Assembly: GCA_016124895.1 (NCBI GenBank)
Contig: WGMU01000172.1
Location: 1 to 38,912, forward strand
Direction of reading: 5' to 3'
Origin: a bacterium
GTDB lineage: Bacteria > Planctomycetota > Planctomycetia > Planctomycetales > Planctomycetaceae
Length of the DNA: 38,912 nt
Part shown: positions 14,971-37,767 of the stretch, piece by piece
Layout of the letters: each line of letters opens with the position of its first letter
Numbering within the stretch: the first letter of the stretch is position 1
Position numbers and translations under genes: made by a program
The notes under the pieces: model-generated
The model's database searches: none
Told to the model about the DNA's origin: nothing
Seen by the model: only the letters and a program-made list of their open reading frames with translations

Positions 14971-15178
14971 GGCAGTCCTCTCGGCTGCTGGGAAATGGCG
15001 GGTCACTCAGCTTACTTCGCCATTCTGAGAAGATGAACCCCGCCGCAGATAGCCGAGCCACGACTCGCTGACCGCTGTGTTCTGTGCCCGGCATCCTTGC
15101 GGCGGGTAGGTATCATCTGGCACATTGCTTGCAATCATCAGTGCCGAATGACTTTTCCTCATATCAGGAGCCGGTGCC

Positions 15179-15760
15179 ATGACAACCAGTCTTTCTGACC
15201 GAGGTGCGTTTTCCAATCGTGAGCGAGCCCTTGAGGACGCCTTTTTCCACAAAGTGGATGCCGAATTGCTGGCGCAGATCCGCGCAGAGCTTCACGGCGA
15301 CGACGATCTCGAAAAGCTCGCGGAAAAGACAGGAATTCGAGACCAGAAGTTGCTGCAGGAACTGCTTGAGATGGGCCTCACTGCAGAGAATCTGCTGGTC
15401 CTGTGGCTGATCCCGCTGACGCAGGTCGCGTGGGCCGACGGTGAGATTGACGGCAACGAACGTAGAGCCATCGAAGCGGCACTCTGTGAGCAGGGCTTTG
15501 CGGCAGAGAGTGCAGCGGCGCGGCTGATGAGTTCGTGGCTGGATCATCGTCCCTCAGAGGCGGCCCTCGAAGCGTGGCGTGAATACGCCGTCACCGTGCT
15601 GCGAAATGCCGACGAGCAGCGACGCGTGCAACTCAAGCACGAACTGCTGGCGCGGGCGCGCGATGTCGCACGAGCGGCGGGAGGATTCATGAATCTGGGC
15701 GACGTCTCTCGTGCAGAAGAGGCCGTATTGCGTGAAATTGAGACGGCACTGACGCAGTAG
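15179..15760 (+). CDS. TerB-like helical protein
   Basis: 193 residues, soluble and mainly helical. The central segment VAWADGEIDGNERRAIEAAL (about 83-102), with clustered acidic residues (Asp87, Asp91, Glu94), is the hallmark of TerB-like domains, which are thought to bind metal and act in stress responses. AGGAG stands before the ATG. It is divergent from the DUF1549 gene and first of three small plus-strand genes. It shares the TerB-like theme with the first gene of the window but has no nuclease domain. The specific function is unknown. Confidence 0.8.
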   Translation: MTTSLSDRGAFSNRERALEDAFFHKVDAELLAQIRAELHGDDDLEKLAEKTGIRDQKLLQELLEMGLTAENLLVLWLIPLTQVAWADGEIDGNERRAIEAALCEQGFAAESAAARLMSSWLDHRPSEAALEAWREYAVTVLRNADEQRRVQLKHELLARARDVARAAGGFMNLGDVSRAEEAVLREIETALTQ

Positions 15761-15926
15761 TCGCCAGTCGACCCGTTACTCCACTCCGCTGAATGTTGCC
15801 CCTGAAACAGCATGGTCAGTCGGCACAGGGGTTGCTTCTGCGGGGGTTGTGGGCATAGGCAGCAGGAACGCTCGACTGCTGCAGAGGGATGACTGGACGT
15901 GTGAAAAAAGAAGAAAGGAGCAAGCC

Positions 15927-16316
15927 ATGACAACGCTCGAACAAACCTGCCGTGAACTGCACCAGCGGTACGAACACATTGGCAACGAGCTGACTCAACT
16001 GGAGCTGAAGCTGGTGGCTCCAGGCTTCCAGACAAAGGAAGCCGCGTCGGGGAAAGCTCGCGAGCTGCATGAGGAGGTCAAAGTGCTGCGGCTGCGGCAC
16101 GACGAGGGCCTGCGACGCGTCAACGAGATGCACGCAGCAACAGGAGCCGACTTCGACAGGTTCGTTACGGAAGTCAGCGGAATGGCGGATGATCTGGAAG
16201 TTCGGGTCCAACACTTGACCGCGGCATGGACGGAAGCCTTCGGAGACGAAAGCCCGGACCAGGCAGCGGCGCTGCGCGAATCGGCCGCAAAGCTTTCTGC
16301 GGCGACAACAGACTGA
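15927..16316 (+). CDS. Small coiled-coil protein of unknown function
   Basis: 129 residues from the ATG at 15927, chosen because AAAGGAG lies just upstream and the protein then begins with a coiled-coil helix; the frame itself opens 26 codons earlier. The composition is rich in Glu, Leu, Arg and Ala with heptad-like spacing (LEQTCRELHQRYEHIGNEL; later KARELHEEVKVLRLRHDEGL). It has no signal peptide, membrane helix or catalytic motif. It sits between a TerB-like gene and a two-helix membrane protein gene, and may be a structural or adaptor protein. I do not recognise a family. Confidence 0.7.
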   Translation: MTTLEQTCRELHQRYEHIGNELTQLELKLVAPGFQTKEAASGKARELHEEVKVLRLRHDEGLRRVNEMHAATGADFDRFVTEVSGMADDLEVRVQHLTAAWTEAFGDESPDQAAALRESAAKLSAATTD

Positions 16317-16551
16317 TAATGCTCAAGCCTGCCCATCCGGCACGGCGGACGGTGCGCGAGACGTTTCAGGGAACTGACTCTGCACACGGCTGGTATTGAC
16401 GTTCTGTCAGACAGTAAAAAGCAGAGCAGTTCTCTGCTGTCTGTGGAGACAGACACAGCGATCGGAGAGCATCGAGGCATCAGCAGTTGTGTCGCGGGCG
16501 ATGTCACCTCGACAGGCGCAAACAAGAGAGATTCTTTTCGGGAACCATCGG

Positions 16552-16881
16552 ATGACTGACTATGACCCGACATACGACATTCAGAATCCGACGCGACGCA
16601 ATCCGCTGCTCGCTCTCATTGTCGGGGCTGTCTTCCTGGCGGTAAATCATCAGTTCATCGAACAGTTCCCCGGTGTCCTGAAACTCCTGACCGCCATCGG
16701 GACTCTGTTCGTCACGCTGGGCATCGCCGGCCTGGTTGATCCGAGGCTGTTTTATGGGGTCATGGACCAGGCCAGGGATGTCTACCCGGCATGGGTTCGC
16801 CCGACGAGTCTTGCGCTGGTGGCCGCTGGTTTTCTGATCGGACTCGCGTTGCTGGTATTCGTCTACAAGGCGTTTCCGTAA
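16552..16881 (+). CDS. Small two-helix membrane protein
   Basis: 109 residues from the ATG at 16552; an upstream in-frame start adds no recognisable sequence. Hydrophobic segments are visible at about residues 19-60 (NPLLALIVGAVFLAV, then LLTAIGTLFVTLGIAGLV) and 85-106 (LALVAAGFLIGLALLVFVY), so there are two or three membrane passes with a short polar N-terminus. No family is recognised. A 235-base gap separates it from the coiled-coil gene, so co-transcription is possible but not shown. It converges with the SDR gene, whose end lies 60 bases on. Confidence 0.65.
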   Translation: MTDYDPTYDIQNPTRRNPLLALIVGAVFLAVNHQFIEQFPGVLKLLTAIGTLFVTLGIAGLVDPRLFYGVMDQARDVYPAWVRPTSLALVAAGFLIGLALLVFVYKAFP

Positions 16882-16941
16882 CAGCGTTGAAAAACGCTCG
16901 ACGTCATGGCGAACACGACTGCCACAGCGACGCGGAAAACA

Positions 16942-17724
16942 TCAGATCGCTGTATATCCGCCGTCGATGACGATCGCTGCTCCGGTCACATAGCGGGCCG
17001 CATCGCTCGCCAGATAGACGGCCAGCGGGCCGAGGTCTTCCGGCTGACCGAAGTCACCCATCGGAATCTTTGACTTGAACGACTCAATCAAGCCTGGATT
17101 CTCGCGCGACCAGCGTTTGTTCGGGTCGGTCATAAAGCCGCCGGGGCAGATTGCGTTGACCGTGATTCCGCGGGGCGCCCAGTCGACAGCGGCCGTTTTT
17201 GTGAACTGCAGCACGGCGGCTTTCGAAGTTTCGTAACTGCGGCCTCCGATTCCAGGCGTCACGACGAGCCCGTTAATCGACGAGATATTGATGATCCGCC
17301 CGCCCTGGCCGCGCTCAACCATCGCTCCGCCAATCAGTTTCGTGCAGAGAAACACGCTGGTCAGGTTGAGGTCGATCAGTTCCTGCCAGGTTTCCAGCGG
17401 CATCTCAGTCGTCGGCGTCGGCACACGGCGACCTCCGACATTGTTGATCAGAATGTCAATTGGTCCCGCCGTTTCCAGAGCCTCACGACACGCGCGTTCA
17501 CAGTCGGCGGGAATTCCAATGTCCGCAACGATCGGCGTCGCCACTCGCCCAAGTTCGCGGATCTCGTCTGCCGTCCGGTTCAAACTCTCCACGTCGCGTC
17601 CAGTGAGAGCAACGTCCGCTCCAGCGCTCGCAATCGCCAGAGCCATCTCGCGTCCGAGCCCGCGACTGCCGCCCGTGATGAACAGGGTCCTGCCATCAAG
17701 ACGAAAGCGATCCAGAACGTTCAT
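16942..17724 (-). CDS. Short-chain dehydrogenase/reductase
   Basis: 260 residues, classical SDR length. The cofactor motif is TGGSRGLG (17-24), followed by NNVGG (94-98). The catalytic residues are Asn120, Ser148/Ser149 in NISS, Tyr164 and Lys168 in SYETSK. Arg43 after beta-2 (TGRD) is compatible with NADP(H). Sequence flavour is that of gluconate 5-dehydrogenase-like or 3-oxoacyl reductase-like enzymes, but the substrate cannot be assigned. GAGGAG lies just before the ATG. The SET-domain gene lies 53 bases upstream on the same strand, so the two may be co-transcribed. Confidence 0.9.
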   Translation of the reverse strand: MNVLDRFRLDGRTLFITGGSRGLGREMALAIASAGADVALTGRDVESLNRTADEIRELGRVATPIVADIGIPADCERACREALETAGPIDILINNVGGRRVPTPTTEMPLETWQELIDLNLTSVFLCTKLIGGAMVERGQGGRIINISSINGLVVTPGIGGRSYETSKAAVLQFTKTAAVDWAPRGITVNAICPGGFMTDPNKRWSRENPGLIESFKSKIPMGDFGQPEDLGPLAVYLASDAARYVTGAAIVIDGGYTAI

Positions 17725-17777
17725 GGCGGGGCTCCTCAGATTGGATGGAGACGGGTGTCCGGAACTGCTACCCGCGG

Positions 17778-18155
17778 TTACTCGACGACGTCAAACCAGA
17801 CGGGCGACTGGTCGGTCGGTTCCGAGTTGTAGTTGATCGTGATCTCCTCACCGGCCGCGATGTCACGGATGGCGTAAAAGACTTTGACCTGAGGGCCGCC
17901 GTAAAAGTATTGAGCGTTGGGCTGGTACGAATGGTTGTAGAGCGACCCGTATCCCAGCGCCAAAGCGACTTTCCCCTTCGACCACTCGAAGGCGTAGTCC
18001 GCCAGCGGCGTCCCGTACAGGCAGTCGTCCGCCACCAGCAGCACCGGCGCCCGCTCGATCTCGTCACCCTCTGCGATCGGACGTCGAGCGAACACACCGC
18101 GTCCCTTCCCTCGAACACGTCGCACTTCAATCACGTTACTCGGAATCAGTGGCAT
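17778..18155 (-). CDS. SET domain-containing protein
   Basis: 125 residues from the ATG at 18155; a start at 18200 would add 15 residues without homology. The whole protein is a minimal SET domain. The N-terminal RRVRGKGRGVFARRPI matches the GxGxxA(R) entry motif, GYGSLYNHSYQPNA the NHxxxPN cofactor pseudoknot, and DIAAGEEITINY the GEELxxxY motif. SET proteins are S-adenosylmethionine-dependent lysine methyltransferases. There is no typical post-SET cysteine cluster. The target in a bacterium is unknown. It is divergent from the EutB-EutC fusion gene. Confidence 0.88.
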   Translation of the reverse strand: MPLIPSNVIEVRRVRGKGRGVFARRPIAEGDEIERAPVLLVADDCLYGTPLADYAFEWSKGKVALALGYGSLYNHSYQPNAQYFYGGPQVKVFYAIRDIAAGEEITINYNSEPTDQSPVWFDVVE

Positions 18156-18465
18156 GACGATCGCCAGTCTCTGCAGCAGGCTGATCCGGACAGCATCCAT
18201 TGCCGCGGCCGATCAGCCCAGCCAGGCCGCGGGCGGATTCTTAAGCGAGCAACCTCACTCGGCAAGCACACCCGGAACGGCAGCAGCGATACCGGTCACC
18301 CGGCCGCCGCCGTGCGTCTCACGAATAGTCTGCCGCCCAGACCGGCAGCCCCGCGCATCGCCCGGCATTTCCAGTCGGGCCGAGTCTCGTCATCATCTGT
18401 CGCTTGCAGATCTCTGCCTCAGAACCGGATCACGCGCCACTTCGCAGACTGCACGGAGCCACGGC
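18156..18465. other. Divergent intergenic region upstream of the EutB-EutC gene
   Basis: 310 bases between the SET gene and the lyase gene, presumably carrying both promoters. No convincing sigma-70 boxes were seen. A cobalamin riboswitch was looked for because the lyase family needs adenosylcobalamin; only a weak fragment (AGTCTG...CAGACCGGC, around 18330) recalls the B12 box, with a disrupting insertion and no other conserved element. Confidence 0.4.
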
Positions 18466-20763
18466 ATGATCACTCGCCGCAGTTTCCTCAGATCAACGGC
18501 TGTCGGTGCCTCGTCACTCAGCTTCGGCCGCCTGGTTCGCTCAGAGTCGCAAACCGCTGCGACTCCTGGTGTCACGCTGTCCCAGCCTGCCCCGGATGAC
18601 GACATTTTCCGCTTCATCCGTCGCACGAAAGGACGCGACGATCAGCGGCTGTATCAGCAGATTCTCGGTGCCGCGAATCCGTTCAAAGAAGGCGATCGAA
18701 CGATCGGCGTTGCCGCTGCAGACGACACCACTCGTCAGCGGGCCAGAACTCTGCTGAGCCGGACGCGTATCGCAGACATCTCCGCGACACCGCCGTTTCA
18801 CGACAAGCTGTACGAACTCCTGCAACGCAGTTTTGATCGCAGCGCCGCCACGGAGACATCGCGACTGACGCTCGGTGAACTCAAGCAGTTCCTGCTGACA
18901 TCGAGTGAAGCGTCGCTCAAAGCTGTCATGAGCGGCCTGCCGAGTGACGTCATCGGCTGTGTCGTCAAGCTGCTGAGCAACGACGAACTGATCGCCGTCG
19001 GCGCGAACGTCTTCAATCCACTGCCGGGCAGCAGAATCGGGGCACGCGGCTACCTGGGAGCCCGCATTCAGCCGAACTCGCCGACGGACAACACGCAGGA
19101 CATCTTCTGGCAGGTTCTCGACGGCTGGTCGTACGCGGTGGGCGACGTCGTGCTGGGAAACAATCCGGTGTCGAGCGATCCGCGATCGGTTCGGGCCATT
19201 GAGGAAACGCTCCGCGACCTGCTCGTCACGTTCGGCATTGACGACCTGCTGCCGCACTGCGTACTCGCTCACATCGACGTGCAGTCAGATGTCGAACGCA
19301 CCTGGCCGGCCAGCACAGCGCTCTGGTTTCAGAGCATCGCCGGCTGCGACTCGGCCAACGCCACGTTCGACATCAGCGTCGACAAAATGCTGCGTTACGC
19401 AGACCAGCGAACCGGCCCGTACGGACTGTACTTTGAGACCGGACAGGGAGCCGACTTTACGAACGGACACAGTCACGGCGTCGATATGGTGCTGCACGAG
19501 TCGCGAAAGTACGGCTTCGCTCGCGCTCTGACGCAGCGAGTTGCGGCGGCACAGCAGCGGATCGGTTCAGATCGGCGGCCGTGGGTGCATCTCAACGACG
19601 TCGCGGGCTTCATCGGTCCGGAGGTCTTTCGCTCGCGTGAGCAACTCGTGCGCTGCTGCCTCGAAGATATCGTCATGGGAAAACTGCACGGACTGACGAT
19701 CGGCCTCGATGTCTGCTCGACGCTGCACATGGACGTCTCACTCGACGACCTCGACTGGTGCCTCGATCAGATCATGCCCGCGAACCCTGCGTACCTGATG
19801 GCCCTGCCGACGAAAATCGACCCTATGCTCGGCTACCTGACAACCGGCTTTCAGGATCACGTGCGGTTGCGTGAGAAATTCGGTTACCGCGTCAACGACG
19901 CGATGTGGCAGTTCTTTCAGCGGCTGGAAGTGATCGACGAAGCTGGAATGCCGACCGCGCATTTCGGAGATCCGCTGTGGATTTATCTGCAGTATCGACG
20001 CCGCCGCAACGACTCGCGCAGCGACGAGGCAATTCTCGACGAAGGGCGATCTCAGATTGCCACCGTGCGAAGCCGTGGTGTGTTTCTGGTCGAAGGTCAT
20101 GGCGGTCGCGTCTGGGATCTGCCGCCGCAGACTCAGGCGGACATCTCGCGGATTTATGTCGATGCGAAGAAATCGATCTGGGCAGAACTCGACGCTGACT
20201 TCGTCGACTCCATCCCCGGTGTCAAGAAGCTGCACACGCAGTCAAACGACCGGACGGACTACATTCTGCATCCGGAAACTGGTGAGCGTCTGGCCGGGAT
20301 TTCACTGCAGTCGCTGCGGAGCCTGAAACAGCAGCACGCTGGACAGTACGACGTTCAGATCGTTGTCTCCGATGGTCTGAATGCTCTGGCAACCGGCAAT
20401 CCCGGGCAGTTGCTTCCATTCCTGCAGCGTCTGCGTGATCACCTGCAACTGGCGGGACGCAGCACGGCGCCGGAACATCTTGTCGTCACATCCGGCCGCG
20501 TGAGAGCCGGCTATCGGATCGGCGAGACGCTGTTCTCCGGACTGCCCGGTCGACGCAGCATCCTGCACGTCATCGGCGAACGCCCCGGCACCGGCCATCA
20601 CACGTTCTCGGTCTACATCACAACCGCCGACGGCACGGTCTGGAGTCAGACCGGAACGGTCGACCACAACATCACGAAAGTCGTCTCCGGCATTGCCACG
20701 ACCGCGTTCACACCAGCACCCGCGGCCGAGGAGACAGCTCGAGTGCTGAAGACGCTCGGCTGA
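18466..20763 (+). CDS. eutBC: Fused ethanolamine ammonia-lyase (EutB-EutC) with Tat signal
   Basis: 765 residues from the ATG at 18466, which has GGAG upstream. It opens with a twin-arginine signal, TRRSFLRS, then a short hydrophobic stretch. Residues about 45-490 are an EutB large subunit (TIM barrel). Residues expected at the active site are kept by comparison with remembered E. coli EutB: Arg200 and Gln202 (ARIQPN), Asn233 (GNNP), Glu324 in YFETGQG, Asp415 in GLDVC. After a linker, about 545-765 is an EutC small subunit with VVSDGL (Asp636), GRVRAGYRIGE and GERPG (705-708), which contact the cobalamin tail in the family. The enzyme converts ethanolamine to acetaldehyde and ammonia using adenosylcobalamin and is normally two separate cytoplasmic proteins. 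Both the fusion and the export signal are unusual. No other eut or microcompartment gene is nearby. It converges with glpK. Confidence 0.9.
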   Translation: MITRRSFLRSTAVGASSLSFGRLVRSESQTAATPGVTLSQPAPDDDIFRFIRRTKGRDDQRLYQQILGAANPFKEGDRTIGVAAADDTTRQRARTLLSRTRIADISATPPFHDKLYELLQRSFDRSAATETSRLTLGELKQFLLTSSEASLKAVMSGLPSDVIGCVVKLLSNDELIAVGANVFNPLPGSRIGARGYLGARIQPNSPTDNTQDIFWQVLDGWSYAVGDVVLGNNPVSSDPRSVRAIEETLRDLLVTFGIDDLLPHCVLAHIDVQSDVERTWPASTALWFQSIAGCDSANATFDISVDKMLRYADQRTGPYGLYFETGQGADFTNGHSHGVDMVLHESRKYGFARALTQRVAAAQQRIGSDRRPWVHLNDVAGFIGPEVFRSREQLVRCCLEDIVMGKLHGLTIGLDVCSTLHMDVSLDDLDWCLDQIMPANPAYLMALPTKIDPMLGYLTTGFQDHVRLREKFGYRVNDAMWQFFQRLEVIDEAGMPTAHFGDPLWIYLQYRRRRNDSRSDEAILDEGRSQIATVRSRGVFLVEGHGGRVWDLPPQTQADISRIYVDAKKSIWAELDADFVDSIPGVKKLHTQSNDRTDYILHPETGERLAGISLQSLRSLKQQHAGQYDVQIVVSDGLNALATGNPGQLLPFLQRLRDHLQLAGRSTAPEHLVVTSGRVRAGYRIGETLFSGLPGRRSILHVIGERPGTGHHTFSVYITTADGTVWSQTGTVDHNITKVVSGIATTAFTPAPAAEETARVLKTLG

Positions 20764-20822
20764 GGCTGCCACTCAGAATGCCCGCCTGGAATCCCTGCCT
20801 GGACGGGGTCGTTCACCGCGGC

Positions 20823-22304
20823 TTACGCCATGCACTGCCGAACGGCGTGCTTCCATTCCTCGTAACGGACAGCCGACGCTGACTGATCGGGTGACGGCAC
20901 AAATTCCTCATCGAGCTGCCAGTTGGCCGTCACGTCCGATGGATCATTCCAGACACCCGTCGCCAGTCCCGCAAGGTAAGCCGCTCCAAGAGCCGTCGTT
21001 TCCTGGACAACCGGCCGCTGAACCGGGACGCCGAGCACGTCCGCCTGAAACTGCATCAGCAGCGAATTCACCGTCGCTCCACCGTCGACGCGCAGCACAT
21101 CGAGCGGCTGACCGCTGTCCTGCTGCATGGCTTCCAGCACGTCGCGCGTCTGCCAGGCGATCGATTCGAGCGCTGCTCGCGCGAGATGAGCCCGCGTCGT
21201 GCCTCGCGTCAAACCGACAATCGCGCCGCGCGCGTCGGAGTTCCAGTACGGCGCGCCGAGTCCCGTAAATGCCGGCACGAAATAGACGCCGTCCGTCGAC
21301 TCAACCTGCCGGGCAAGACCTTCAACGTCCGCAGAGTTCTCGATCAGCCCCAGCCCGTCCCGCAGCCATTGCACGACGGCCCCCGCCACAAAGACCGAAC
21401 CTTCGAGACAATAAGTCACCTTGTCGCCGAGCTGCCAGCCGATCGTCGTCAGCAGTCCGTTCTGAGAAGCGACCGGCTCGCTGCCCGTATTCAGCAGCAG
21501 GAAGCAACCGGTCCCGTAAGTATTCTTCGCCTGCCCGGCAGCAAAGCAGCCTTGCCCGAACGTCGCCGCCTGCTGGTCGCCCGCGATCCCGGCAATCGGA
21601 ATTGCCGCCCCGAACAGTGACGCGTCCGTCACTCCGTAAACCTCACTCGACGACCGCACCTCAGGAAGCATCGCGCGCGGGACGTCCAGCATCTGCAGCA
21701 GATCGTCATCCCACTGACGCGAGTGGATATTGAACAGCAATGTCCGGCTGGCGTTGCTGACATCAGTCACGTGAACGCGTCCGCCGGACAGTCGCCAGGC
21801 GAGAAACGAGTCAACCGTCCCGAAAAGAATCCCACCGCGTTCGGCGCGAGCCCGCAGCCCGTCGATTGAATCCAGCAGGTGCCTGATCTTCGTTCCGGAG
21901 AAGTACGCATCGACAACCAGCCCAGTCCGTTTGCGAAACTCGTCTTCCAGTCCATTCGCCTTGAGCTGCTCGCAGATTGGAGCCGACACGCGGCTCTGCC
22001 ACACAATGGCGTTGGCCACCGGCTTTCCGGTGTCGCGTTCCCAGAGAATCGTCGTCTCGCGCTGATTCGTGATCCCCAGTCCGGCCATCTGAGACACGTC
22101 GAGGCCCGACCGTTCGATCGCCTGCTTCGCCGTCGCGAGCTGCGAAGTCCAGATGGCCTCGGGATCATGCTCGACGTGCCCTGGCTGCGGAAAGATCTGC
22201 GGGAACTCCTGCTGCGCCTGCGCTACCACGCGGCCATCCTGTGAGAACACGATCGACCGACTCGAAGTCGTCCCCTGATCGAGTGCCAGAACGTGATCCG
22301 CCAT
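20823..22304 (-). CDS. glpK: Glycerol kinase
   Basis: 493 residues from the ATG at 22304, preceded by AGGAG; an upstream in-frame start would add non-homologous sequence. FGGY-family landmarks are present in order: [13 protein letters not shown] (Asp9-Gly11 phosphate loop), GITNQRETT (80-85, glycerol binding), [13 protein letters not shown] with the catalytic Asp, [14 protein letters not shown], and the C-terminal VDGGAT ATP loop. The enzyme phosphorylates glycerol to sn-glycerol 3-phosphate in the cytoplasm. No glycerol transporter or glycerol-3-phosphate dehydrogenase gene lies in the window. It converges with the ethanolamine lyase gene, 59 bases apart, and is divergent from nadC. Confidence 0.95.
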
Positions 22305-22447
22305 GCGAAAGCTCCTGTCTCCGGCGTCCTGCTTCATCGGCGCGTTTGAGAAGCACCAACCATCGCGATTCTGGCGCACGTTCGAGAGATCCGCCATCCC
22401 GCCCAGGTAGCGGAACGGCGCGACCGAGAACATCCTCGTTGTTGTTC

Positions 22448-23437
22448 ATGGCGACGTGTCTCGAAATACTTCCGGGACCCGAGCACTTTGACTTTCCCCA
22501 CTCCGAAAGACTGACCGTGACCGTCCCCTCCTCCGTCTTCAGTAAACGCGAACTGGCCGCCGCATTGCCACTCGTCGAAGCGGCTCTCGACGAAGACCTC
22601 GCCGACGGCACGGACCTCACCTGCGCGGCAATGGTCAGCGACGATGACTTTGCCGAAATCCACGTGCGGACGCGCGAGCCCGGCATCGTCGCCGGCCTGC
22701 CCATTGGCGAGCTGGTCTTTCAACAACTGGCCGAACGGATGGGGCCGACGCGCGCCGCCGTCTGGACAACCGAAGTCGCCGACGGTTCGGCGATCGAACC
22801 CGACCAGATCGTCGCGCGAGCGATCGGTCCGCTCGATGCCCTGCTGATCGGCGAACGGACGGTGCTCAACTTTCTGGGCTATCTGAGCGGTATCGCCACG
22901 CAGACGGGTCGCTTTGCCGCTGAAGTCACTGGGACGAACGCAACAATCCTCGATACCCGCAAAACGCTGCCCGGCTGGCGGATTCTCGCGAAGTACGCGG
23001 TGCGCTGCGGCGGTGGCACGAATCACCGGATGGGCCTCTACGATGGCGTGCTCATTAAGGACAACCACCTGGCCGCCTGGTCGCAGCAGATCGGCAACTC
23101 GTCGCTGGCCGAAGCGATTCGACAGGCACGTTCCCGCTCACCGGAAGGCATCTCGATCGAAGTCGAAGTCGACACGCTCGCGCAGCTCCGCGACGTTATT
23201 GAAGGCCGGCCTGACATCGTTCTGCTCGACAATATGCCGCCGGACCAGCTACGCGAGGCCGTCGCCCTCCGCAACGAACGAGCCCCGCAGATCCAGCTCG
23301 AAGCCAGTGGCGGCGTCACTCTGGAAACCGTGCGAACGATTGCCGAAACCGGCGTCGACCGCATCAGCATCGGAGCCCTGACCCACTCGGTCACCAACCT
23401 CGACCTCGGCTTCGACTTTCATCGTCGGCATCGCTGA
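22448..23437 (+). CDS. nadC: Nicotinate-nucleotide pyrophosphorylase (carboxylating)
   Basis: 329 residues from the ATG at 22448. Typical NadC proteins are about 290 residues, so a GTG near 22516 is an alternative start. The family signature is complete: LNFLGYLSGIAT, the substrate-binding TRKTLPGWR, RCGGGTNHRMGLYDGVLIKDNH, EVEVD, LLDNM, and the phosphate-binding EASGGV...ISIGALTHS near the C-terminus. The enzyme makes nicotinate mononucleotide from quinolinate and PRPP in de novo NAD synthesis. No nadA or nadB gene is nearby. It is divergent from glpK across about 140 bases. Confidence 0.94.
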   Translation: MATCLEILPGPEHFDFPHSERLTVTVPSSVFSKRELAAALPLVEAALDEDLADGTDLTCAAMVSDDDFAEIHVRTREPGIVAGLPIGELVFQQLAERMGPTRAAVWTTEVADGSAIEPDQIVARAIGPLDALLIGERTVLNFLGYLSGIATQTGRFAAEVTGTNATILDTRKTLPGWRILAKYAVRCGGGTNHRMGLYDGVLIKDNHLAAWSQQIGNSSLAEAIRQARSRSPEGISIEVEVDTLAQLRDVIEGRPDIVLLDNMPPDQLREAVALRNERAPQIQLEASGGVTLETVRTIAETGVDRISIGALTHSVTNLDLGFDFHRRHR

Positions 23438-28984: not shown

Positions 28985-30475
28985 CTACGCCAGCATCTCG
29001 CGGACAACGCTCGCCGAGTCCGGAACCAGCGTGATGGCGCGGCCGGTGCGATCGGGAATCGTCGAGTGCGGATCGATCCCCAGCAGGTGGTACATCGTCG
29101 CCAGGGCGTCCTTCGGCGAGACCGGTCGCGAAACAACTTCGCCGGCCTGCGCATCGGTCGAACCGACCACGTTGCCGCGAGCCACACCGCCACCGGCGAA
29201 GATCGCCGAATACGCCTTCGACCAGTGATCGCGACCACCGTTGGCCGCTTTGTTGATCTTCGGCGTACGACCGTGTTCGCTCAGACAGACCACCAGCGTG
29301 TCATCAAGCATCCCGCGCTGTTCGAGATCGAGGATCAGCCCGGAGAAAGCACGGTCGAACGGCGGCAGCAACTGATCCTTCATTCGCGGGAAATGGTCCA
29401 CGTGCGTGTCCCAGGCGTCGCCCGCGAGTCCGTACTCGTCCCAGAAGACGGACGCCAGCCGCGTCCCCGCTTCAATCATCCGCCGTGCTGCCAGGCACCC
29501 CTGACCGAACAGCGTGTGACCGTACAGCTCGCGGATCGATTCCGGCTCGTTACGCACATCGAGCGCTTGAGCGACTTCCGGCGAGCCGACCAGAGAAAAC
29601 GCCATGTCCTGAAACTTGCCCAGCGAACTGCCCGCCGACGTTTGATCGAGATCGCGCCGTGCGGAATCAAACTGCGAGAGCAGCGACCGCCGCCGGTCCA
29701 GTCGGTCGGTCGTCACGTTCGGCAGCGGAGCCGTCGACGCGATACGGAAGTGGCTGTCCTTCGTCGTGCCGAGATATGGTTCCGGGCCGTCAAACGAAAA
29801 CTGACCGCCGGCTCGTTCCTTGTGAATGTGGATCGTGCCGTCGCCGACGAATTCGGTCCAGGTCGGGTTGAAACCAGCTCCCAGAAATGCCCCGTACGGA
29901 CCGGCGCGAAACGGCTGATCACTGCGTTTGCTGCTGAAGTGAAACGGCAAAGCGACGTTCTGCACGAAGTCCGACCGGCTGGTGCCCTGCTGCCGGTCGA
30001 GGTATTCGACGACTGAGCCGAACCAGGGATGATGCCGCGGGTCGCGCGGATTCAGCTCCATCGCGACATCAATGATCGGAATCCCGGTCATCGCATACGC
30101 GACGCCATGAATGGGGTAGTCGTGCGTCATCGACCGAACCACCGTCGTCCGGTCCATGATCTGCGACGTGTGAGGAAGCAGCTCGCAGACCGGCAAACCG
30201 GGAATCGTCGACGGGATCGGCTCCATCGTCCCGCGAATCTCGACGGGAGCCTGAGGCTTCATATCGAACGTCTCAAGCTGACTCGGCGATCCGTACAGAA
30301 AGAGCACGATACAGTTCTTCGCCCGGCCAAAGCCGTCGCCCGCGGCCTGAGCAGACTCAGTGGCCAGCAGGGTCGACAGACTCAGCCCGCCCATTCCCAG
30401 ACTGCCCGCGTGCAGAAACTCGCGCCGCGAAACGCCGTGACACAGCTTTCTGGGTGATCCAAGTACGCGAAGCAT
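28985..30475 (-). CDS. DUF1501 Tat-exported protein
   Basis: 496 residues. The N-terminus has a twin-arginine signal (SRREFLHAGSLGMGGLSLSTLL, residues about 17-38) ending near SAQAAG. The body matches DUF1501, an alkaline-phosphatase-superfamily-like fold: VLFLYGSPSQLETFDMKPQAP, VVRSMTHD, DHFPRMKDQLLPPFDRAFSGLI, and VVCLSEHGRTPKINKAANGGRDHWSKAYSAIFAGGG. GAGGAAC lies just before the ATG. DUF1501 genes normally accompany DUF1549/DUF1553 genes; in this window the only such partner is about 14 kb away. The biochemical function is not established. Confidence 0.92.
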   Translation of the reverse strand: MLRVLGSPRKLCHGVSRREFLHAGSLGMGGLSLSTLLATESAQAAGDGFGRAKNCIVLFLYGSPSQLETFDMKPQAPVEIRGTMEPIPSTIPGLPVCELLPHTSQIMDRTTVVRSMTHDYPIHGVAYAMTGIPIIDVAMELNPRDPRHHPWFGSVVEYLDRQQGTSRSDFVQNVALPFHFSSKRSDQPFRAGPYGAFLGAGFNPTWTEFVGDGTIHIHKERAGGQFSFDGPEPYLGTTKDSHFRIASTAPLPNVTTDRLDRRRSLLSQFDSARRDLDQTSAGSSLGKFQDMAFSLVGSPEVAQALDVRNEPESIRELYGHTLFGQGCLAARRMIEAGTRLASVFWDEYGLAGDAWDTHVDHFPRMKDQLLPPFDRAFSGLILDLEQRGMLDDTLVVCLSEHGRTPKINKAANGGRDHWSKAYSAIFAGGGVARGNVVGSTDAQAGEVVSRPVSPKDALATMYHLLGIDPHSTIPDRTGRAITLVPDSASVVREMLA

Positions 30476-32258: not shown

Positions 32259-33431
32259 TCACGCGGCCCGAAAACGTTCCTCGAAGAGCTGCACCGCTGT
32301 CTGCACCACCGTCCTGTGCATTGTCAGCCGTTTTGCGAAGTCCTGCCGCATTCCGGTTTCGATGGTGAAGCCTGGGCCGTAATGCCGCGCGGCGAAATCA
32401 ACGAGATTCAATCCCTCACCACGCTGTGAGGGATCAAGCCAGTAAGCTCCCGGCTCCAGCTCCTTGAAGAACGAACCAGGACTGTAACCGGCATCTGGAA
32501 ACGTGGCTCCGATTCCTTTGACGGCTTCGACCGCCTCGCGAGCCATCCGCAGTTCCCAGAGTTCGTCGTCGTCCGTCTGCTGCCGCCGAGCGGACATCCA
32601 GAAATCGTCGCCACCGTACTCGTGCAGATCGAACACCAGCCGCGGCTTGACCTCAGCCATCAGCTTGAGGATGCAACGCACTTCGACCGGAGCCCACGGC
32701 GTATCATGAAACCGGTTCAGGTGCAGCACTTCGCCCTTTGGCGTCACGATCTGCGTGTAAGCTCGCTGCAGCGGTGCTGCTCCCGGCTGATCCGTGCGGC
32801 TCGACGGAAACCACATCCGACGTCCCTTCAACGGTTCCAGGAACGCCGCTCCGTCGTACTCGCGCCGATTGAAACTGGTATTCGCGTAACCGTAATCGCC
32901 GATCAGGACCAGCAGGCGGCCATCCGCGTCATACAGGACTTCGCCCTTGCTGCGCAGCAGCGGCTCGACTTCGTCGATGCCCGCAATCGCCAGTTCCTCC
33001 CCCAGCCCGAAACTGAGCACATGCCGAAAGCCCTGCAGTCCCATCGGATCGCGGCACGGGATCACATAAACCGCGTGGTCTGTCCGCAGCTCGTCAATCA
33101 GTTCGACGGCGGCGACGACACCGGCATGTTCCGTCGAGTGCGCACCCGCACTGATCAGGATCGCCGGGAGCTTCTCCCCGCCGGCTTTGACGGCGACAAC
33201 CGGTGAGCCATCCGGGCAATGCCCCAGCGTTCGCCACTCGTGACCGCGTTTGCGAATCGCGTCGAGTAGGTCCGAGTAACGGTTGAATCCGAACGAGTTG
33301 TCGGTCAGTGGAGCCTCCGCGTTCGACGGCTTCGGCGTGAGGAACGCAGCGCCAGCCGCGAGACCACAGGTCGCCAGAAACCGCCGACGCGACGATCCGT
33401 TGTCCATCCACACCTGCTGACCGTCGCTCAT
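32259..33431 (-). CDS. Tat-exported M14-type zinc carboxypeptidase-like protein
   Basis: 390 residues. A twin-arginine signal SRRRFLATC lies at about residues 14-22, ending near NAEA. The peptidase domain has SAGAHSTEHAG, with His98 and Glu101 as the HxxE zinc ligands, and DLHEYGGDDF with the third His. TIETG near the C-terminus carries the candidate general base Glu. This pattern fits the M14 carboxypeptidase/succinylglutamate-desuccinylase-like group, acting on peptides or acylated amino acids. The ATG overlaps the stop of the upstream hydrolase (ATGA, 33428-33431), indicating translational coupling and a shared pathway. Confidence 0.87.
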   Translation of the reverse strand: MSDGQQVWMDNGSSRRRFLATCGLAAGAAFLTPKPSNAEAPLTDNSFGFNRYSDLLDAIRKRGHEWRTLGHCPDGSPVVAVKAGGEKLPAILISAGAHSTEHAGVVAAVELIDELRTDHAVYVIPCRDPMGLQGFRHVLSFGLGEELAIAGIDEVEPLLRSKGEVLYDADGRLLVLIGDYGYANTSFNRREYDGAAFLEPLKGRRMWFPSSRTDQPGAAPLQRAYTQIVTPKGEVLHLNRFHDTPWAPVEVRCILKLMAEVKPRLVFDLHEYGGDDFWMSARRQQTDDDELWELRMAREAVEAVKGIGATFPDAGYSPGSFFKELEPGAYWLDPSQRGEGLNLVDFAARHYGPGFTIETGMRQDFAKRLTMHRTVVQTAVQLFEERFRAA

Positions 33432-35867: not shown

Positions 35868-37298
35868 TCACAGCAGCTCGACAATTGGCCTGCCGCCGTC
35901 GGAGAAGTCGATCGGGCGACCATCGGCCTTCTTCAGCCGTGCCGCCGTATCGATACCGAGCTTGTGATAGATCGTCTCGGCATAATCGGCCGGGGTGTAG
36001 CGGCGATCGATGACTTCTCCGCCTTCGAGGTCCGTCGCACCGATGACCGACCCGCCGGGCACGCCGGCTCCGGCAAACGCGATCGACATCGCGCGACCCC
36101 AGTGGTCGCGGCCGGCCCACTGATTCATCCGCGGCGTGCGTCCCATTTCAGTGACGAAGCAGACCAGCGTTTCTTCCAGCAGCCCGCGTTGATCGAGGTC
36201 TTCCAGCAACGCGCTGAATGAGCGGTCGAGACTCGGCATCATCACCGGATGCGGCAGCCCATAGCGTTCCTGATTCCGCATTCCCTGAGGACCTCCGCAC
36301 GGACCGTTGTTATAGATGCCTTCGTGATGGTCCCAGTTGAGAAACACTCCGTTCGGCTGGCCGTAGTTCGGGCGCCCGACGAGATCCGGTGGCTGCACGA
36401 TCGTGACACTCACAAAGCGGACGCCAGCTTCGATCAGCTTCCGCCCCAGCAGATAACAGCAGCCGCGATGATCGCGTCCGTAGCGATCACGCATTTGCTC
36501 GGACTCGGACGCCAAATCAAATGCGTTCTGCACACGCGGACTCGTCAGCAGCTCGAACGCGTTGGAGTAGTACTGCTGCAGCGGCTTCGCGTTCTCGATC
36601 GCCAGAGCGTTCTTCCTGTCCAGATCGTCAAGCAGTCGCTGCCGATTCCCCATCCGCGAATGATTCAGCCCCGACTGCGGCGTCAGTGCGGCGACCTTCC
36701 ACTCGGGATCGGCCACGTTCTCTCCGAGCCCCTTTGTCCCGAGCTTCCACGGAGCCCGTGCGGCCGGCAGGAATCCCGGACTGGTCACCGCGTTCGGCAT
36801 GTTGACGCCGGGACAGAAGACGTAACCCGGCAGTTGCGGGCAGTCGCTGCCCAGCAAATGCGTCACCACCGACCCGATATCCGGAAAGTCGAACGGCGCA
36901 TTGAACCGGTAGCCCTTGAAGAACTCCTTACAGCCGTTCGGGTGGCTCGCCGCTTCGGCCGATGTCATCGAGCGAACCACCGCCAGCCGGTGCGCCTGCT
37001 GAGCGATCAGCGGCATCAGTGACGAGAATTGCACACCAGGCACGCTGGTCGAGATCGGGGCAAACGGGCTGCGGTGATCCACCGGCGCCGCTGACTTTGG
37101 ATCCCACGAGTCCATCTGGCTGATTCCGCCTTCTTCATAGACGACCAGCACCTGCTTTGCCTTCGCGACGATCGACGACTCACTCGCCGCTGCGTCGAGC
37201 GCCAGCATTTCCGGCAGCCCGAACCCCAGCACACTCGCCGAGACCGCCTGCCCAAACCGCCGCCGAGTCCATTTCTTCTCGAAAAAACCACTGCTCAT
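35868..37298 (-). CDS. DUF1501 protein with Tat-like signal
   Basis: 476 residues from the ATG at 37298; the frame is open much further upstream but that part has no domain. The N-terminus KKWTRRRFGQAVSASVLGFGLP is a twin-arginine-like signal. Body motifs are VLVVYEEGGISQMDSWDPKSAAP, VVRSMTSAEAASHPNG, LPHPVMMPSLDRSFSALLEDL, and VCFVTEMGRTPRMNQWAGRDHWGRAMSIAFAGAGV, all diagnostic of DUF1501. It differs clearly from the DUF1501 protein at 28985, so the two are not recent duplicates. The Shine-Dalgarno sequence is poor. No DUF1549 partner is adjacent. Function is unknown. Confidence 0.9.
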   Translation of the reverse strand: MSSGFFEKKWTRRRFGQAVSASVLGFGLPEMLALDAAASESSIVAKAKQVLVVYEEGGISQMDSWDPKSAAPVDHRSPFAPISTSVPGVQFSSLMPLIAQQAHRLAVVRSMTSAEAASHPNGCKEFFKGYRFNAPFDFPDIGSVVTHLLGSDCPQLPGYVFCPGVNMPNAVTSPGFLPAARAPWKLGTKGLGENVADPEWKVAALTPQSGLNHSRMGNRQRLLDDLDRKNALAIENAKPLQQYYSNAFELLTSPRVQNAFDLASESEQMRDRYGRDHRGCCYLLGRKLIEAGVRFVSVTIVQPPDLVGRPNYGQPNGVFLNWDHHEGIYNNGPCGGPQGMRNQERYGLPHPVMMPSLDRSFSALLEDLDQRGLLEETLVCFVTEMGRTPRMNQWAGRDHWGRAMSIAFAGAGVPGGSVIGATDLEGGEVIDRRYTPADYAETIYHKLGIDTAARLKKADGRPIDFSDGGRPIVELL

Positions 37299-37767
37299 CG
37301 TGAGCCCCCACGTCGAGACCGGGCCGAACACTTCTCCGCGGGCGTCGTCCCCGCAGTTTTGTGGCGGCAGCATACCCCGCCAGGAACTCATTCCGTCAGA
37401 CCAGTCCCTTGATTTAGCTGACGGTGCGTTCGATGACCCGGCGGATTCTGCCGGGATGGCTCCCATGAGGGCTGTTCCGTTTACGAATGTTGGGTTCGAT
37501 TCCCGGGAATCGCAGGCTGCAGCGTGTCGGCTCGCTGTCCTCGCCGGCGTCCGCAGACAGCTTGTCGGGATGTCCTTTCGGTCATCCCGGTTTGCCACCT
37601 GCATGGGGAAACGCAGCGACCGGCGCATGGATTGTCAGCTCGCAGAATCGCAGGTGTAGCTTCACGGAAACCAATCTGCGTTTCTGGTCAAGTACCTGGA
37701 TTTCGTGTGAACCGCGAATCGGCTCGCGCTGCATTCTTCTGGAGATCGTCGTCTGCCCGGTCCCAGC
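37299..37767. other. Gene-free interval before the IS debris
   Basis: 469 bases with no recognisable gene. ORFs here have no domain. The 5' part presumably holds the DUF1501 promoter. The right part borders IS fragments and may itself be old mobile-element DNA. Confidence 0.45.

Follow-up and report, generated by a model that had tools for sequence, protein, structure and literature searches.

A single-chain ethanolamine ammonia-lyase with a predicted twin-arginine signal in planctomycetes and myxobacteria

Here, we report that the window (the whole stretch of 38,912 nucleotides of planctomycete DNA that was analysed) encodes a EutB-EutC fusion protein, which is probably an exported, catalytically intact single-chain ethanolamine ammonia-lyase that is loaded with a cobamide before export. 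Export, cofactor, substrate, products and activity of this enzyme are inferred from sequences and a structural model. What alignments and the predicted structure do establish is the presence of both lyase domains, invariant substrate-site residues, a conserved predicted N-terminal signal, versions of this signal with a lipobox, and copies that lack it.

The gene forms one open frame from an ATG at 18466 to a stop codon that ends at 20763, and its product, which begins with MITRRSFLRS, contains all five of the motifs ARIQPN, YFETGQG, GLDVC, VVSDGL and GERPG. The first-pass annotation had read the locus as a single 765-residue ORF that joins EutB to EutC and carries these motifs, and ORF, motifs and Pfam domains confirm this. 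The features are, in coordinates of the window:

18466..20763, + strand: whole gene of the EutB-EutC fusion with predicted Tat signal, 765 aa (ORF, Pfam, full-length orthologues)
18455..18458, + strand: GGAG, a possible ribosome-binding site 7 nt 5' of the ATG (sequence reading)
18466..18561, + strand: predicted twin-arginine signal region, residues 1-32, MITRRSFLRS..., no cleavage site assigned (RR plus hydrophobic stretch in 78/78 rows; pLDDT <50)
18655..19956, + strand: EutB domain, residues 64-497 (PF06751, E 8e-133; model versus 3abo_A)
19957..20130, + strand: segment joining EutB and EutC, residues 498-555, ordered in the model (Pfam domain limits; pLDDT by block)
20131..20754, + strand: EutC domain, residues 556-763 (PF05985, E 2e-29; model versus 7xrm_B)
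19063..19071, + strand: R200 and Q202, equivalent to E. coli EutB R160 and Q162 (alignment; invariant in 78 rows)
19162..19164, + strand: N233, equivalent to E. coli EutB N193 (alignment; invariant in 78 rows)
19435..19437, + strand: E324, equivalent to E. coli EutB E287 (alignment; invariant in 78 rows)
19708..19710, + strand: D415, equivalent to E. coli EutB D362 (alignment; invariant in 78 rows)

Both Pfam models match far above their gathering scores, EutB with 443.8 bits (gathering 25) and EutC with 103.1 bits (gathering 25.8). The EutC match covers residues 556-763 and so falls inside the region 545-765 for which the first-pass annotation had predicted it. The window protein also passes the NCBIfam EutB model (590.8 vs. 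a cut-off of 554). It remains below the cut-off of the NCBIfam EutC equivalog PRK05465 (81 vs. 230 bits) and is therefore not filed as that equivalog. Fusion or signal could in principle have been produced by assembly or by a wrong choice of start codon, as the frame stays open 5' of the ATG as far as 18154 (869 aa if extended). The orthologues, however, come from many independent records, are full-length, 59-69% identical to the window protein and free of internal stops, which argues against two genes joined by a frameshift or in assembly, and their start codon lies just 5' of the RR segment. On the evidence of these orthologous sequences an artefact is already refuted, and we give it practically no credence.

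Five residues of E. coli EutB, R160, Q162, N193, E287 and D362, which we take to form the substrate site, are all identical in the window protein. Their counterparts R200, Q202, N233, E324 and D415 are invariant in the 78 rows of a wide alignment, which consists of the window protein and 77 of 80 named loci. A separate residue count returned gaps at all five positions for one row, which was taken as an effect of cutting or aligning, given that every row of the wide alignment has the residues at these positions. Invariant EutC columns were listed for 19 rows. The AlphaFold model of the window protein has a mean pLDDT of 89 and a pTM of 0.87, with values below 50 for residues 1-32. It superimposes on E. 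coli EutB (3abo_A) with a Z-score of 45.3 (441 aligned residues, rmsd 2.9) and on E. coli EutC (7xrm_B) with a Z-score of 24.0 (229 aligned residues, rmsd 3.6); in the model, both domains thus share the folds of E. coli EutB and EutC. The best reading of conserved residues and predicted structure together is a catalytically intact lyase, for which activity and cofactor are inferred.

The case for a twin-arginine signal was built on relatives of the window protein. An RR segment directly preceded by a start codon is present in 15/15 relatives read, counting the split gene of one genome (G001), and the RR segment is likewise present in 77/77 aligned loci; orthologues that begin downstream of this segment, a possibility the first-pass annotation had left open, were thus not encountered among them. 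In an alignment of 15 rows (14 relatives plus the window protein), R4, R5 and F7 are invariant (RRxF), while no column between residue 9 and about residue 44 reaches 70% identity. An invariant RRxF that is followed by variable residues is the pattern of a signal peptide. R4 is invariant in the 78-row alignment as well. R5 is only nearly so, yet every row has an RR pair, and we therefore consider this an alignment effect. Not included in this alignment are L077 and L083, in which the N-terminus is unreadable as the contig ends, and L027, for which the N-terminus was read but the gene is cut. RR followed by a hydrophobic 13-residue stretch was found in 78/78 rows, including the window protein, compared to a mean of 10% for shuffled N-termini and to 0/20 EutBs outside the clade, including the one of E. 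coli. This test is biased towards a signal, as starts were placed at the codon immediately before RR, and its hydrophobicity threshold of 0.95 was fixed after the values had been seen (lowest 0.98). A less biased sample is provided by the orthologues from a phylum-wide set of genomes (see below) beyond the first set, 24 of 25 of which have RR and a hydrophobic stretch. Eight of the 25 were apparently already part of the first set; without them, 16/17 are signalled. Library models for Tat signals score the window protein below their cut-offs (Pfam TAT 14.4 vs. 22.7; TIGR01409 11.9 vs. 16.7), so the case for a signal rests on conservation. The own genome, i.e., the genome from which the window derives, encodes TatC. 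Tat signals are found on many enzymes in planctomycetes. Three more ORFs of the window (28985-30475, 32259-33431, 35868-37628) have a twin-arginine segment near their likely start; by eye, two of them are DUF1501-like and one is peptidase-like.

In 11/78 rows, the hydrophobic stretch ends in a cysteine in lipobox context (L039, L040, L048, L052, L058, L059, L065, L069, L072, L081, L100), and in nine of these 11 a proline-rich tether follows the cysteine. Except for L100, all lipobox rows derive from myxobacterial records; no lipobox cysteine was found in L086 and L094, both labelled Myxococcota. Three of 14 matches to the lipobox pattern (L029, L030, L097) were excluded, as it is not clear that their cysteine terminates the hydrophobic stretch. 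The lipobox rows are scattered over a 37-row tree, on which the label needs three changes. As a lipobox serves a purpose only on the outer side of the inner membrane, these predicted lipoprotein forms are the best evidence for export that the sequences offer.

Signal-less relatives are also part of this family. For 11 of the 80 named loci, the source genome was searched for EutB; seven of these genomes are myxobacterial. A second full EutB match is present in four of the seven myxobacterial genomes (G422, G423, G427, G428), and G428 has a third one over 35 positions that is below the cut-off. In Myxococcus xanthus AM003, the species of L058, the lipoprotein form is the sole EutB match. The four second copies (L151-L154) are full fusions without signal, reside in the same genomes as the lipoprotein form and constitute one clade within the signalled family. 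Three of the four have an RR pair ahead of the likely start that is not followed by a hydrophobic stretch (h <0); these were counted as signal-less, whereas a tally of any RR pair would give 28/30. One more signal-less member, L149, is the sole exception among the 25 phylum-sample orthologues. These five fall in two separate spots inside the signalled rows. Such a placement, which for L149 is next to signalled rows, suggests loss of the signal, with the reservation that the root of the tree rests on a very distant outgroup. The idea that a Tat signal is a strict property of the clade was dropped because of these five members, and their existence implies that the enzyme is kept also without export. 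The suggestion of the first-pass annotation that the lyase may run outside the cytoplasm gains support from the 11 lipobox members and from the signal-less second copies in four genomes, and does not extend to the five members that have no signal.

The same signal-less members, together with the low scores of the library TAT models, are compatible with an ordinary lyase in the cytoplasm or on the inner leaflet, in which the twin-arginine stretch only tethers the protein or escapes recognition by Tat. A two-chain ethanolamine ammonia-lyase was seen at the cell membrane of Acinetobacter baumannii without a predicted N-terminal signal on EutC, according to the available part of that study (PMC9426561). 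However, neither tethering nor unrecognized arginines sit well with an RR that never varies in front of a hypervariable hydrophobic stretch, and the signal has turned into that of a lipoprotein repeatedly, which is sensible only if the N-terminus crosses the membrane. We therefore regard a lyase that stays inside as unlikely, albeit not to be dismissed, and continue to favour export.

The fusion is neither ubiquitous in planctomycetes nor limited to them. In the own genome (8.13 Mb, 99.78% complete), the window protein matches only its own gene (E 0.001). Among 59 genomes, i.e., the own genome and 58 relatives, 31 match the window protein and 16 (own included) have the fusion at 59% identity or more, with the G001 gene split across two contigs. 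The best matches in the remaining 15 matching genomes are only 33-37% identical. The phylum sample gave a similar division: 57/393 genomes match, 31 of them with the fusion (at least 58% identity) and 26 with best matches of only 31-38%. A scan of one genome per species of bacteria and archaea matched at least 591 stretches, at least 452 of which encode some relative. The 80 named loci are the best 80 of these at least 452 relatives and hence a biased choice. The records behind these best 80 loci belong to six phyla, namely Planctomycetota, Myxococcota, Bacteroidota, Pseudomonadota, Thermodesulfobacteriota and Acidobacteriota, and the myxobacterial members among them include M. xanthus AM003, Pyxidicoccus fallax and Archangium. 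Many of the 80 loci are metagenome bins, and taxon labels may be wrong. The enzyme is thus not specific to planctomycetes, and the scope given in the first-pass annotation, which had spoken of "this lineage", was too narrow.

The surroundings of the gene were searched for functional partners. When nine E. coli eut products, among them EutB and EutC, and a partial Eat permease were used as tblastn queries (E 1e-6), only EutB and EutC matched in the window, in agreement with the earlier statement that no eut or microcompartment gene is nearby. E. coli eutA, H, G, J, E, L and K, and likewise the Eat permease, had no match in either the window or the 80 loci, which total 1.285 Mb; eutN and others were not among the queries, and EutH was searched only near the genes, not genome-wide. 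Eat-type permeases adjoin separate eutBC genes in L017, L102 and L103. EutA had no match in the own genome and was above the cut-off in only two of the 59 genomes, G009 and G024, the latter a fusion genome. Absence of EutA was dropped as a special mark of the fusion, as ordinary EutB genomes mostly lack EutA too. The best Eat-type permease match in the own genome has 63 bits (cut-off 381.75), and none in the 16 fusion genomes exceeds 136 bits, compared to more than 300 bits in 5/15 genomes whose EutBs are all of other types. Scores above 300 bits for Eat also occur in three genomes that have no EutB match at all, and the permease contrast between fusion genomes and genomes with other EutBs is modest. 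A PduO-type adenosyltransferase is encoded in the own genome. Two microcompartment shell genes are located at 30295-30919 of contig C135 of the own genome (G000), a different contig from that of the lyase, and are perhaps of the planctomycete sugar-degrading type.

There was also no sign of a conserved operon. Clustering of 983 ORFs of the 80 loci, a number that includes the lyase genes and comes from flanks of varying length, yielded no non-lyase family with members in over 11 loci. No gene recurred among those 20 of 148 adjacent ORFs that were scanned with Pfam. The glycerol kinase, NadC, SET protein and SGNH-like protein of the window had no match in 95 related loci; its SDR had weak matches in five of the 95, and two other window proteins match eight and 14 loci, the positions of which were not compared. 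The glycerol kinase (named by eye; 20823-22433) faces the lyase gene. It was considered as a marker of phospholipid use and dropped, given its lack of matches in the 95 related loci. No Rfam family scored above its gathering score at 15000-23000, a tRNA search found none, and no neighbour gene indicates the fate of acetaldehyde.

In a larger tree of 40 of the 78 signalled rows and 20 other EutBs, the signalled fusions form one clade with a support of 100/100. The branch to this clade is very long (3.57 changes per column, counted from the midpoint root), and the tree carries the program's long-branch warning. EutB-EutC fusions without Tat signal exist in a lineage that we call type B (G024, G385, G117, G243, G066) and in G330; the label "fused without Tat" needs three changes on the tree, two of which are forced by well-supported branches. 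Given these cases, fusion alone is not unusual. The combination of fusion and predicted signal is confined to the signalled clade among the proteins examined. G385 has an RR near its start that is not followed by a hydrophobic stretch, and G024 has both a Tat fusion and a type-B fusion. Best matches of the other planctomycete EutB types are 31-38% identical to the window protein. The type-B fusions (L101 in G024, L115 in G385, L116 in G117, L117 in G243, L120 in G066) and L105 of G009 represent a second planctomycete EutB lineage, of which five of six members are fused to EutC and have no signal. In all six, Ala takes the place of E. coli D362, and this second lineage may, judged by that residue, act on another substrate.

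The length of the branch that separates the signalled clade from other EutBs also leaves room for an exported or membrane-held protein with another job, i.e., one that deaminates a different amino alcohol or captures cobamides outside the cytoplasm. An EutC domain well below the NCBIfam equivalog cut-off and the absence, in 80 loci and the window, of any tried eut gene beyond eutB and eutC point in the same direction. Yet a mere binding protein would not need the five substrate-site residues that are invariant here, and the D362 position is one that can change, as is evident from the Ala in 6/6 members of the separate planctomycete lineage. A different job is, in our opinion, improbable without being excluded, and deamination of ethanolamine remains the preferred assignment.

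In the model that we propose, the chain most likely takes up an adenosylated cobamide as it folds in the cytoplasm and would then be exported in folded form by the Tat machinery. In E. coli EutBC, the cobamide sits at the interface of large and small subunit, and a single chain would guarantee 1:1 assembly of EutB and EutC ahead of export. In planctomycetes, the signal would probably be cleaved to leave a periplasmic enzyme, and most myxobacterial members would be retained on a membrane through a lipid-anchored cysteine. Outside the inner membrane, ethanolamine, e.g., from phospholipid breakdown, would be converted to acetaldehyde and ammonia, with acetaldehyde first made outside the cytoplasm and not inside a microcompartment shell. 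If so, an ethanolamine permease would not be needed. Cytoplasmic folding, Tat export and deamination outside could account jointly for fusion and signal, for the lipobox and for the absent permease. Export by Tat, the loading with cofactor that precedes it, the substrate and products and the physiological reason are all inferences.

It is tempting to generalize this model to a widespread group of adenosylcobalamin radical enzymes that are loaded with cobamide, exported by Tat, lipid-anchored in myxobacteria and active outside the cytoplasm, with relocation as their solution to the acetaldehyde problem and with some myxobacteria maintaining an exported and an internal form. We offer this only tentatively, as we judge its chances to be a little short of even. 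To our knowledge, adenosylcobalamin radical enzymes have been studied as cytoplasmic or microcompartment proteins, often in conjunction with an ATP-driven reactivase. If the lyase is exported, it would operate without ATP at hand, in a place where radical B12 enzymes are not expected to function, and would show how radical B12 chemistry is sustained outside the cell interior. It would also add a second answer to why bacteria enclose aldehyde-forming enzymes in shells. In planctomycetes and predatory myxobacteria, ethanolamine, which is released from membranes and supplies nitrogen and carbon, would then be used at the cell envelope. The signalled and unsignalled pair within single myxobacterial genomes makes the effect of location testable in culturable bacteria.

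The closest known system is EutBC of E. coli and Salmonella (PDB 3abo, 5ysr, 7xrm), which we take to be the ethanolamine ammonia-lyase EC 4.3.1.7. The window protein has domains, fold and substrate-site residues in common with E. coli EutBC, at an identity of about 31% to EutB and 23% to EutC over the aligned parts. In E. coli K-12, however, EutB and EutC are separate polypeptides encoded side by side in an operon that also contains shell genes, eutA, eutH, eutE and eutG, whereas the window protein is one chain, has a predicted Tat signal and has none of the tried operon genes nearby. Other planctomycete EutB types have the same kinds of domains and fusions occur there too, but RR plus hydrophobic stretch was found in 0/20 examined. 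A search of open-licence papers revealed none that combines ethanolamine ammonia-lyase with twin-arginine, although a subscription paper could exist, and for adenosylcobalamin-dependent enzymes and twin-arginine only work on reductive dehalogenases and chloromethane use came up, as far as the available parts of these sources go. The enzyme family is thus known, and its single-chain form with inferred export is apparently undescribed in the open-licence literature.

Precedents nevertheless exist for individual elements of the proposed model. PceA, a corrinoid respiratory reductive dehalogenase, is carried across the membrane by Tat, and its chaperone PceT binds the PceA signal and takes part in folding prior to export, according to the accessible part of the source (PMC10624902). 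By analogy, and within the limits of that partial source, reductive dehalogenases are a precedent for Tat export of a corrinoid enzyme (PMC10624902). They differ from the lyase in that PceA has iron-sulphur clusters, uses cobalt for redox reactions and does not perform adenosylcobalamin radical chemistry. The ethanolamine ammonia-lyase of A. baumannii has no shell, needs no EutA and was seen at the cell membrane, as stated in the part of PMC9426561 that was at hand. The same part of that paper reports no export of this enzyme, and describes, unlike the single chain of the window, separate eutBC genes, a cotranscribed aldehyde dehydrogenase and an EutC for which a signal is not predicted (PMC9426561). 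A. baumannii is, again by analogy and from an incompletely available source, a precedent for a lyase that manages without shell or reactivase (PMC9426561).
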